Below the pieces are notes generated by a model, which was given only the letters and a program-made list of their open reading frames with translations, ran no database searches and was not told the DNA's origin. The position numbers were made by a program, and so were the translations under genes. 38,740 bases of DNA from Gammaproteobacteria bacterium (GTDB taxonomy: Bacteria > Pseudomonadota > Gammaproteobacteria > Steroidobacterales > Woeseiaceae), in NCBI GenBank assembly GCA_030426325.1, contig JAUHYO010000002.1:1-38740 (forward strand), read 5' to 3'. Positions 4,923 to 30,262 of this stretch are shown here, one piece after another. Numbering within the stretch: position 1 is the stretch's first letter; each line of letters starts with the position of its first letter.

Positions 4923-7016
4923 TTACACTTTCCCGTATCGGCTGGCGTCACCGAGCCAGCGACGAACGATTGCAGCGGCGATCGATCCGGATTCTCGTGC
5001 AATGACTTCCGCCGTTTTCTGTACCTGTGGCATCAATGCCGCATCGCGAACGAGATTGGCAATGCGATATTCGGGCAGCCCGGTCTGCCGAGTGCCGAGC
5101 AATTCGCCCGGCCCGCGCAATTCAAGATCACGCTGTGCAACGACAAAGCCGTCGTTGGTGTCTCGCAGAACGCCGAGCCGTTCTTTTGCGATGCGCCCGA
5201 GAGGCGACTTGTAAAGCAATACGCAGTGACTCTGCGCTGCACCGCGTCCAACGCGACCACGCAGCTGATGCAATTGCGACAGCCCCATTCGCTCCGCGTT
5301 CTCGATGATCATCAGGCTCGCATTGGGCACATCGACACCCACTTCGATGACGGTTGTCGCGACCAGCAACTGGATGCGCCCCTCCTTGAAAGCACTCATG
5401 CCGCGCTCTTTCTCCGCCGGACGCATGCGGCCGTGAACGAGCCCGACACGCAAGTCCGGCAGCGCCTCGGTCAGCATCGCGTAACTGGCTTCGGCTGCCT
5501 GGTAGTCGAGTACGTCGGATTCCTCAATGAGCGGGCAGACCCAGTACGCCTGCTGCCCCGATTCGCAGGCTGATCGCACGCGTTCAACAACTTCGCTGCG
5601 CCGAGAGTCGGGAATCGCGATGGTTGTAACGGGCTGCCGGCCGGGCGGCAGCTCATCGATGATCGAGGTGTCGAGATCCGCGTAGGCGGCCATCGCGAGC
5701 GTACGTGGTATCGGCGTTGCGGTCATGACGAGCTGGTGCGGGTGAACGCCCTCCGACACGCCCTTCTCGCGCAATGCCATGCGCTGGTGAACGCCAAAGC
5801 GATGTTGCTCATCAATGACGACAAGGCCGAGGCGGTGGAAGTCGACGCCCTCCTGGAACAAGGCATGGGTGCCCACAACCAGTTGCGCGGATCCGCCTTT
5901 TATAGCTTCGAGCGATTCCCGTCGTGCCACAACTCGCTGACTTCCGCTGAGCCAGGCCGGTTCGATGCCGAGTGGACGAAACCAGTCGGAAAAGCTGCGC
6001 CAGTGTTGCTCGGCAAGAATTTCGGTGGGCGCCATGATGGCAGCCTGCACGCCGCAGGCGATCGCCTTCAGACAGGCAATGGCGGCCACAACAGTCTTGC
6101 CCGAACCGACATCACCCTGGATCAGGCGCATCATCGGGTGCGGTTCGGACAGGTCGCCGAGAATTTCGTCGACAACGCGTTGTTGCGCGCCGGTCAGTTT
6201 GAAAGGCAGCGATTCAATGAAGCCGCCGACGTCGTCATCGCCGTTCGCCAGCGCGAGTGCGCCCTGGGTTGCTGCAAGTGTTCGCACTTTGCGCAAACTC
6301 AAGTAGTGCGCGAGCAGCTCCTCGAATGCCAGGCGCTGCTGGCAGGGATGAGTGCCCGCGAGCATCTGCTGCACATCAGCGTCCGGCGGCGGCCGGTGCA
6401 AATACCGAATGGCATCGGCCAGCGAGGGCATGCCGAGTTTCTCGGTAACGGTCCTGGGCAGGAGCTCGCGCGGCGGTGAACGAGTCATTTGTTGCAACGC
6501 CTGTTCGGTGAGATTGCGAAGCCGCCCTTGCTGGACGCCCTCGGTGGCCGGATATATGGGGGTTAGAGAATCACTGGTTACCGCGTCCTGGTCTTTCTTC
6601 AGGACGCGGTACTCTGGATGGATGATCTCGAAACCCTTCTGTCCGCGCCGTATCTCGCCATAACACGTGACGTGTACCCCAACCTGAAACTGAGCCTGTT
6701 GCTGTTTCGAAAAATGAAAAAACCGGAGCGTCAACTGGCCGCTGCCGTCACCGATTCGTACGAGCAAGTTGCGGCGTCCGCGAAAAACCGTTTCTGCAAG
6801 TAAGACCTCGCCGGTGACCAGGCTTCGCATCCCAGCCTCAAGTGCGCCGATCCTGACGAGCTGCGTTCGATCTTCGTAACGCAGCGGCAACAGGAAAAGG
6901 AGGTCGTCGACGCGATGCAGGCCGAGCTTCTCGAGTTTTTTTGCAAGCGCCGGACCGACGCCTTTCAGTTCGGTAAGCGGTGAATCAGATTGCAATGACG
7001 GCATCTGCCTCGACAT
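4923..7016 (-). CDS. recG: ATP-dependent DNA helicase RecG
   Basis: [48 protein letters not shown]; full-length 697 aa. Start could be 7004. Confidence 0.97.
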
Positions 7017-15463: not shown

Positions 15464-16756
15464 ATGAGCCAGGATTCATACCGCCTGACAAGCCCTGATG
15501 GCTTGGAAATGGAGTTGCCCGTTCGCAAAGGGACCGTCGGCCCCGACGTTATCGACGTAGCGCGACTGTATCGGGAACAGAAAGTATTCACCTACGACCC
15601 GGGATTTGTCTCGACGGGAAGCTGCGAATCCGAAATTACCTATATTGATGGTGAGCAGGGCATCCTGATGTACCGGGGCTACCCGGTCGAACAGCTTGCC
15701 GCAAACTCAAATTTCATCGAAGTCTCGTACCTGCTGCTCCACGGGAATTTGCCGACTGCTGACGAACTCGCGGCGTTCGACAATACGATTCGTCGTCACA
15801 CCATGCTCAACGAAGGCATGCTGAGTTTCTTCGGCGGTTTTCGCTACGACGCGCACCCGATGGCAATGCTGTCGGCTGTCGTCGGTTCAATGTCGGCCTA
15901 CTATCACAATGAGATGGATGCTTCGAACCCGTTGCATCGCGACATTTTCTCACACCGCATTCTCGCCAAACTGCCGACGATTGCAGCCGCAGCTTACAAG
16001 CTGAACATCGGCCAGCCGTTCATTTATCCACGCAATGATCTCAACTTCACCGAGAATCTGTTGCACATGTTATTCGCGGTGCCCGCGGAGCCGTACGAAA
16101 TCGACCCGGTTGCCGCCGAAGCGCTGGACCTGCTGTTCATCCTGCACGCAGACCACGAACAAAACTGCTCAACATCGACGGTACGCATGGCGGGCAGTTC
16201 CGGCGCCAACCCTTACTCTGCAATTGCAGCCGGCATCTCGGCGCTCTGGGGACCCGCACACGGCGGCGCCAACGAGGCCGTGCTGAACATGCTCGAAGAA
16301 ATTGGCGATGTCAGCCAGATAGGCAAGTACGTCGAGAAAGCGAAAGACAAGAACGACCCGTTCCGATTGATGGGCTTCGGTCACCGCGTCTACAAGAACT
16401 TCGATCCGCGAGCGACCATCATTCGCGAGATGTGCTACAAGGTTTTGCAGAAACTCGATCGCAAGGACACACCGCTGTTCGACCTGGCACTCGAACTCGA
16501 ACAGGTCGCGCTCAAAGACGACTACTTCATCGAGAAAAATCTCTACCCGAACGTCGATTTCTATTCCGGCATTATCTACCGGGCCCTCGGTATCCCGACC
16601 TCAATGTTCACCGTCATGTTCGCGATCGGCCGTTCCGTCGGCTGGACCGCGCACTGGCGAGAAATGATCGCGGACCCGCACGGCAAGATCGCACGTCCAA
16701 GACAGCTCTACACCGGCCCGGCGGCAAGAGACTACGTCAAAATCGAAAAACGATAA
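15464..16756 (+). CDS. gltA: Citrate synthase (type II)
   Basis: [85 protein letters not shown]. Confidence 0.97.
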
Positions 16757-16788: not shown

Positions 16789-16867
16789 GCCGCGCCCGGG
16801 AAACTGTTTATCGGAATGGCTCCCTTCGGTCCGCTTTATTTCCTTTAAACAGTTTCCCGGACGCGGC
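16789..16867. repeat. Palindromic intergenic element, copy 1 (22-nt arms, 35-nt core)
   Basis: Left arm GCCGCGCCCGGGAAACTGTTTA (16789-16810) pairs with right arm 16846-16867 at 21/22 positions; core TCGGAATGGCTCCCTTCGGTCCGCTTTATTTCCTT (16811-16845) recurs at 30070-30104 (reverse complement) and 30184-30218. Confidence 0.9.
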
Positions 16868-16871
16868 TTAC

Positions 16872-17483
16872 TTATACGTGTTCGAGTAGCTGTTGTACGG
16901 CGTTGGTGTCTACTCGTTTCATCGGCTTTCCGTCAATCGGACTCATCGGCGCCTGCCGAATCCCGTCGATCGGGAAGACGGTGACCTGGATCGTCGTATT
17001 GCTGTGATGAAACTCAAAGCCCGAGTAAAGCTCAATCTGACCGCGACGACTTTTGAGCCGGCGCTCGTACGGCCGGTAATTGATTCCGATTTCGGCCAGC
17101 TCCATCGCAACCGTTTCTGCGCTGTCTGCAAAAACGTGCAGGTTCACAGCAGAGTTCTCGTCCGCCGTGCCGACGAGGACCGGGCCGACCAGTCGCGGCG
17201 AATGCGCGGACAAGAGTTCCATGGCAGAGAGAGCCGCGACTCGCATCAGGCGTAAATGATCTTCGTGGGATTCGCCACCAAAAATCTGCAGATGCTCGGC
17301 AACAGCGGCCTCGATTTCCGGATTACCGGGAAGGGAGCCGCGATTGTTCATGCCCAGGCGGTCCGCGGCCTTCTGTTTGGCGATGCGGTAGTCGCGAACG
17401 CCATGGTTGACGATAATGCGCGCGGCTTCCTGAGCCACGATCCGTCGCTCACGTTCTGATTCGCTGCTGCGTTTTCTTTTCAT
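16872..17483 (-). CDS. Conserved uncharacterised protein, possibly nucleotidyltransferase-like
   Basis: 203-aa ORF starting 5 nt after the ponA stop on the same strand; RRIVAQEAARIIVNHGVRDYRIAKQKAADRLG...HSPRLVGPVLVGTADENSAVNLHVFAD...GIRQAPMSPIDGKPMKRVD. Confidence 0.75.
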   Translation of the reverse strand: MKRKRSSESERERRIVAQEAARIIVNHGVRDYRIAKQKAADRLGMNNRGSLPGNPEIEAAVAEHLQIFGGESHEDHLRLMRVAALSAMELLSAHSPRLVGPVLVGTADENSAVNLHVFADSAETVAMELAEIGINYRPYERRLKSRRGQIELYSGFEFHHSNTTIQVTVFPIDGIRQAPMSPIDGKPMKRVDTNAVQQLLEHV

Positions 17484-28952: not shown

Positions 28953-30019
28953 TGTCTGAACTCAAAAATGATGTCCTGTTGCGCGCGCTGATGCGCGAGC
29001 CGGTCAACCGCACCCCGGTCTGGATCATGCGCCAGGCCGGCCGCTATCTTCCCGAGTATCGTGAATTGAGAGCCCAGGCGGGCGATTTCATGAGCCTCTG
29101 CCAGAATCCCGAGCTGGCCTGCGAAGTTACCGTGCAGCCTTTGCGCCGCTTCAAACTGGACGCCGCCATCCTGTTCTCGGATATCCTGACGATCCCCGAT
29201 GCCATGGGCCTGGGCTTGTATTTCGTCAGCGGCGAGGGCCCGAAATTCGAGCGCCCGGTTCAGGACGCAAGAGCGATCAAGGCGCTTAAAGTGCCGAACG
29301 TCGAGAAAAAGCTCGATTACGTCTTCAAAACGGTCGGCAGGGTCCGAAAAGAGCTCAACGGTGATGTCCCGCTGATCGGCTTCGCCGGCAGTCCGTTTAC
29401 CGTCGGCACCTACATGGTCGAGGGCGGTTCAAGCCGCACATTTCCAACCATCAAGGGCATAGCCGCCGAATCCCCGGAAGTCCTCGACTTGCTAATGGAC
29501 AAAATTGCCGAGGCCACCATCGAGTACCTGAACGCGCAAATCGATGCCGGTGCGCAGGCCGTCCAGATATTCGACACCTGGGGCGCAGCCCTCGAAGCCG
29601 ACCAGTTCCGGCGCTTCTCAATGGCCAGCATGCAAAAAATCATCGACGGACTGACCCGAACGCATGACGGCCGCCAGGTCCCGGTCATCGTCTTCACCAA
29701 GGGCGCCGGACCCTTGCTCAAAGACCTCGCCGAAACCGGCTGCGACGCACTGGGCGTCGACTGGACAACCGACCTCGCCACCGCACGGCAATACGTTTCC
29801 GACAAGGTCGCATTACAGGGCAACCTGGATCCGGCAACCTTGCGGGAGAGTCCGGAGGTCATCCGGCAGGGCGTGGCGGATACGCTGGCCAGCTACGGAG
29901 ACGGGCCGGGACACGTCTTCAATCTCGGTCACGGAATCACGCCGGACATCAAGCCAGAACACCTGGGCGCATTGGTCGACGCCGTCCACGAGCTAAGCCC
30001 GCAATACCACGATCAGTAA
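28952..30019 (+). CDS. hemE: Uroporphyrinogen decarboxylase
   Basis: [50 protein letters not shown]. Confidence 0.97.
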
Positions 30020-30045: not shown

Positions 30046-30128
30046 GCGAAGCGTTCCGGAAAGTGTTTAAAGGAAATAAAGCGCAGCGCAGCGAGCCATT
30101 CCGATAAACACTTTCCGGAACGATTCGC
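30046..30128. repeat. Palindromic intergenic element, copy 2 (24-nt arms, core inverted relative to copies 1 and 3)
   Basis: Left arm GCGAAGCGTTCCGGAAAGTGTTTA (30046-30069) pairs with 30105-30128 at 23/24 positions; core 30070-30104 is the reverse complement of the copy 1 core with 4 differences. Confidence 0.9.
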
Positions 30129-30165
30129 GGGCCGTTACGTACAAAGCGTCGCACGAATCCCGGGT

Positions 30166-30236
30166 CGACCGGAAAACTGTTTCTAGGAATGGCTCCCTTC
30201 GGTCCGCTTTATTTCCTTGAAACAGTTTTCCGATCG
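30166..30236. repeat. Palindromic intergenic element, copy 3 (18-nt arms, 35-nt core)
   Basis: Left arm CGACCGGAAAACTGTTTC (30166-30183) pairs with 30219-30236 at 17/18 positions; core TAGGAATGGCTCCCTTCGGTCCGCTTTATTTCCTT (30184-30218), one difference from copy 1. Confidence 0.9.
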
Positions 30237-30262
30237 CCCCTTTGTTGGTCGCGGGGTTTTGT

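Follow-up and report, generated by a model that had tools for sequence, protein, structure and literature searches.

A hairpin between gltA and a convergent gene

In the window (the whole 38,740-nt stretch of DNA analyzed here), the citrate synthase gene gltA, with relatives 86% identical in Woeseiaceae MAGs, faces a gene for a 203-aa protein that is present in 68 of 73 congeners. The gap between these convergent genes contains a palindrome (Table 1) which the sequence-only reading had located correctly: of the 22 positions of its arms, 21 form Watson-Crick pairs, and 35 nt are enclosed. The energy z-scores of the fold are -7.2 and -8.6 when it is computed for RNA and near -7 when computed for DNA, with a strong fold on either strand, and none of 200 shuffled sequences folds as well. 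The hairpin does occupy the convergent gap, but the description of this gap as nearly filled was too generous, given that it spans 115 nt, of which the hairpin takes up about two thirds. The reported lack of a U-tract holds for both arms, with no T-run past either, so that the element is not a canonical intrinsic terminator, that is, a GC-rich hairpin followed by a T-run.

Table 1. Features of the gltA hairpin region and of the sister hairpins (positions in the window)
Feature	Position	Strand	Remarks
gltA (citrate synthase)	15464..16756	+	upstream of hairpin
Hairpin in gltA convergent gap	16789..16867	+	arms 16789-16810 / 16846-16867, 21/22 paired
Conserved 23-nt tip ATGGCTCCCTTCGGTCCGCTTTA	16816..16838	+	C-GNA-G mini-hairpin on - strand
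Gene for 203-aa protein	16872..17483	-	convergent to gltA
Second hairpin	30046..30128	-	tip 30077-30099 on - strand, GCTGCGCTG variant
Third hairpin	30162..30240	+	tip 30189-30211 on + strand

The second and third hairpins constitute an inverted pair whose arms are 41 nt apart, located in a gap between a plus-strand ORF ending at 30019 and a minus-strand ORF with its 3' end at about 30263. The sequence-only reading had the entire 35-nt core recurring twice at this distance of about 13 kb. What actually recurs is the 23-nt tip, of the form ATGGCTC-X-CTNCG-X'-T-X''-CGCTTTA, together with the closing GGAA/TTCC bases; the 35 nt differ by 1 base at one sister site and by 4 at the other, and the arms differ among all three copies. 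The element is better described as a conserved tip with free but self-complementary arms than as a conserved core. The core search pattern originally proposed, with a spacer of N10, has one N too many and matches nothing; with N9, it matches exactly three sites, where none is expected by chance.

A family of hairpins in Woeseiaceae

The copies in the window are not the only ones, as the sequence-only reading had considered they might be: the tip occurs 7 times in the source genome. An initial sampling of the genus showed a longer pattern in 42 of 61 genomes, and the tip pattern, with one mismatch allowed, was found in 59 of 107 genomes of the family, representing 7 of 12 genera, with up to 54 copies per genome; within the genus alone, the copy number ranges from 0 to 54. 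Among 369 genomes of the class, the exact tip was present in the two members of the same genus and in none outside it. Judging by the names of the closest gltA relatives, the source genome belongs to Woeseiaceae, a group of marine-type bacteria, and the hairpin family appears to be restricted to this group. Searches of plasmid and phage records at blastn sensitivity returned no match to the element. A single tip copy lies on a contig labelled as viral (L196, IMGVR_UViG_3300044724_002702, positions 5067-5089, minus strand).

The other finding that would have refuted the sequence-only reading, a match to an already catalogued REP/MITE or Rfam family, was not obtained either. The Rfam search gave no match above the gathering score, the one hit being a chance Drosophila match far below threshold, and none in six other loci; a literature search joining Woeseia with palindromic repeats retrieved nothing relevant.

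Conserved tip and covarying arms

The anatomy of the element was derived from 144 distinct hairpins. The inner C-G pair of the tip is invariant (144/144), and the X-X' pair is C-G in 80 hairpins, G-C in 55 and A-T in 2, with 7 mismatched. On the complementary strand, the loop of the tip is GNA in 141 of the 144; C-GNA-G loops are unusually stable DNA mini-hairpins. At one locus (L043), the tip stem is lengthened to seven pairs while the loop is unchanged. Two further peculiarities of the tip were observed: X'' covaries with the X-X' pair (135 of the 144 hairpins have CGC or GCG at the three positions), which no simple pair accounts for, and the same 21-nt insert, CCCGTCAAGCGGGAYCGAGRT, is found within the tips of L211 and L218, at two positions and in two species.

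The arms are free in sequence, with all four Watson-Crick pairs occurring at most positions, and 91.7% of the arm cells are paired, compared to 27-35% when the arms are slid against each other and 45% with shuffled partner arms. Both this covariation and the dispersal of the family are supported by good evidence. One genome (G038) carries 12 copies of a single hairpin in several arm variants, including indels, in which the two arms are always matched; even among the length variants there are no mismatches and no intermediates. These variants look as if one arm had served as the template of the other, although they may also have arisen by stepwise selection.

Residual arm mismatches in 48 dissimilar hairpins are more often A.C than G.T (33 vs 8, p = 1e-4), a bias that shrinks to about 18 vs 10 once positions shared by descent are merged. 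The excess of A.C over G.T implies that the strand complementary to the written tip tolerates wobble pairs, and there is moderate evidence that this strand is the active one.

Empty sites and inverted flank copies

In G038, more than 10 copies of a non-coding paired unit of about 300 nt, bounded by terminal inverted repeats, are located at unrelated loci. Nearly all congeners read have 0-90 nt between murA and degS, whereas G038 has 356 nt, including the unit; among the exceptions, the long value for L283 arises from a gene boundary misplaced by the script, and L280 leaves its contig inside another hairpin. Similarly, the LysM-dprA gap measures 485 nt in G038 and 89-145 nt in the relatives read. 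Thus, the empty sites in relatives that the sequence-only reading had proposed to look for do exist for this unit. These orthologous empty sites indicate that the paired unit inserts, the direct evidence of insertion being limited to the G038 unit. The relatives are diverged (70-90% protein identity), and hence the empty sites are not recent.

At about half of the G038 insertions, the chromosomal flank on one side reappears, inverted, beyond the opposite end of the unit. The inverted match at murA is 45 nt long including the terminal repeat and covers the last codons and the stop codon of the gene; the match at LysM, also 45 nt with the terminal repeat, contains few differences. Outside the shared repeats, the own-flank scores are 38, 28, 21, 15, 14 and 12, with five more near background, whereas 110 pairs with swapped flanks gave a mean of 6.1 and a maximum of 15. 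No direct target-site duplication is evident by eye in the G038 flanks, which at several sites contain the inverted copies instead, and no inverted flank copies were found at the paired units of other genomes. These matches are suggestive of an inverted duplication of the target upon insertion; we know of no bacterial interspersed repeat that spreads in this manner. A pre-existing target hairpin as the source of the murA match was rejected, given that the relatives read have none on the murA side (the ancestor of G038 itself is not visible). At L130, a separate inverted repeat of 44 nt encloses the unit and probably belongs to another repeat family.

Placement at gene 3' ends

The copies are intergenic, single or in inverted pairs, and mostly lie at gene 3' ends. 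A simple script gene caller placed 131 hairpins: 69 (53%) between convergent genes, 55 between tandem genes and 5 (4%) between divergent genes, these shares being derived from hairpin loci alone; of the remaining two, one lies within a probably overcalled ORF and the other at a contig edge.

Such placement is what would be expected of a structured RNA at gene 3' ends (a terminator, a stability hairpin or an sRNA), the second possibility raised by the sequence-only reading, in which case the arms would covary under selection for an RNA stem; the strong folding of both strands and the wobble bias in favor of one of them fit this possibility as well. Orientation speaks against it: within tandem gaps, the tip points with the genes in 33 cases and against them in 22, with no clear bias, inverted pairs by their nature contain both orientations, and the gltA gaps of congeners carry the tip in either orientation, depending on the species, or no hairpin. 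These three observations make an RNA element at 3' ends the less likely reading. When the missing U-tract, the matched indels without intermediates and the absence of an Rfam family are considered too, we regard it as doubtful.

Relationship to known repeat families

The alternative closest in kind is an ordinary REP or REPIN that is moved by a RAYT (a Y1 HUH transposase) encoded elsewhere in the genome. Like REP, REPIN and BIME elements (PMC2817692), the hairpins are short, lineage-specific extragenic palindromes in many copies, often arranged as inverted pairs at intergenic 3' locations, with compensated changes in the arms, and are targeted by IS110 elements (see below); moreover, genes for Y1 transposases are present in 40 of 61 congeners. 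The differences are nevertheless substantial. The hairpins are 75-85 nt long, compared to about 20-40 nt for REPs, and their conserved part is an asymmetric tip, whereas in REPs it is a GT(A/G)G head, which the aligned copies do not share beside the palindrome; in addition, the sequence of the arms is nearly unconstrained. None of 12 RAYT loci has a tip copy nearby, let alone flanking the RAYT gene, the numbers of tips and RAYTs are uncorrelated (rho -0.18), and nine genomes with 8-23 tips have no RAYT that could be found. In view of the lack of both a link in cis and a correlation of counts, RAYT was rejected as the mover, and an ordinary REP appears unlikely. The assignment to REP/MITE-type interspersed elements made by the sequence-only reading is borne out by the many intergenic copies, the inverted pairs, the empty sites and the lack of an Rfam match, but it does not extend to a canonical, RAYT-linked REP.

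Bacterial MITEs are short non-coding units bounded by terminal inverted repeats and dispersed over unrelated loci. In the present family, all these features, along with empty sites, were demonstrated for the G038 unit; it may differ from MITEs in that no parent transposon was found and that the duplication seen at several insertions is inverted rather than direct. No autonomous transposon was seen in a non-exhaustive look; between paired tips, just one ORF was found, of 375 aa and enclosed by two inverted tip hairpins (L168:2083-3210, plus strand). This ORF, possibly captured cargo, has no Pfam match, and for that reason was dropped as a candidate autonomous partner. Near several paired units of the same genome (G005, loci L168-L187), repeats AAAAGGTGTCAGACACGAT and CGTGTCTGACACC were noticed.

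The hairpins could, alternatively, be old, vertically inherited bidirectional terminators that do not move and whose arms drift with compensation, as might be surmised from the presence of a tip hairpin in the same orientation in the gltA gap of several species. In other congeners, however, this gap contains a tip hairpin in the opposite orientation, a different palindrome or nothing, and vertical inheritance at gltA was accordingly rejected as a general rule. These differences imply that the gltA gap is a hot spot and that the copy in the window was not simply inherited. The empty sites elsewhere and the range of copy numbers within the genus count strongly against static terminators, which we consider improbable. 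The unrelated palindromes in the gltA gap are of the GGGGACACC..GGTGTCCCC or GGGGGACAGTGACCC type (L217, L220, L229, L236 and L237), and one of these types is also found in the murA gap of L302; the 128-nt gltA gap of L210 lacks the tip and has a perfect 19-bp inverted repeat, GAGCGGCCAATGGCCGCGA, at both ends.

Finally, it is highly improbable that the hairpins are integron attC-like recombination sites: attC sites, as described in PMC2727003, likewise have variable self-complementary arms and function as a folded single strand, but there the base of the stem is conserved, whereas here it is not and conservation is at the tip, and neither cassette arrays nor an integron context was seen at the loci examined.

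A tentative model of spread and arm maintenance

Taken together, these comparisons suggest that the hairpins are probably non-coding, non-autonomous mobile elements of the REPIN/MITE-like kind, restricted to Woeseiaceae and unlinked to RAYT, with a putative trans-acting mover and with arms that are maintained by copying. The active form would be the single strand opposite the tip, which bears the C-GNA-G mini-hairpin and the wobble pairs. A putative trans-acting enzyme would recognize the folded tip and spread the element into gene 3' ends, and the arms would match because hairpin-templated strand switching, in the course of replication or transposition, copies one arm onto the other. Two reports describe template switching between inverted repeats as a process that homogenizes their arms (PMC8604942, PMC7202029), and we infer by extension that it may have acted on the G038 flanks, so that fold-back copying could also account for the inverted flank copies at several of the paired-unit insertions. 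A more specific version of this model, which we put forward only as a possibility, is that insertion, or later growth, of the element copies the neighboring chromosome in inverted orientation through hairpin fold-back synthesis, with the arms rewritten by copying, on the strand with the GNA-loop tip and independently of RAYT.

Hairpins of the REP type are common, but little is understood of how they spread and how their arms are kept matched. The approximately 140 distinct copies constitute a natural archive of changes made on both arms, matched indels included, along with empty sites and inverted flanks. With this archive, hairpin-templated copying can be tested directly against RNA selection; the conserved tip, for its part, can serve as bait for finding the mobilizing enzyme.

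The tip as a target of IS110 elements

In G005, IS110-family elements (PF02371, PF01548) are inserted in the tips at two CT dinucleotides (loci L172, L174, L175, L179-L181, L183-L185, L321, L323, L326, L329 and L333; all were fetched by the tip and are thus a sample of tip loci rather than of IS copies). These junctions fit the CT core described for IS621 as well as the insertion of IS110 elements into REPs (PMC11208160, PMC1525189), where the targets are likewise fixed positions of a repeated hairpin; the target here differs in being this particular tip, with two CT dinucleotides that are used by IS copies with different ends. The tip, as a site at which IS110 recombinases naturally land, should be useful for reading bridge-RNA targeting. 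At one of the two dinucleotides, the sequence is GGTCCG-CT-TGTATGTTGAT across the left junction and CAACATAGAAT-CT-TTATT across the right one, CT being present at both, with the left and right ends read on different contigs; other IS110 copies are inserted at the earlier CT, with the junction CAACATAGAAT-CT-GCGGTCCG.
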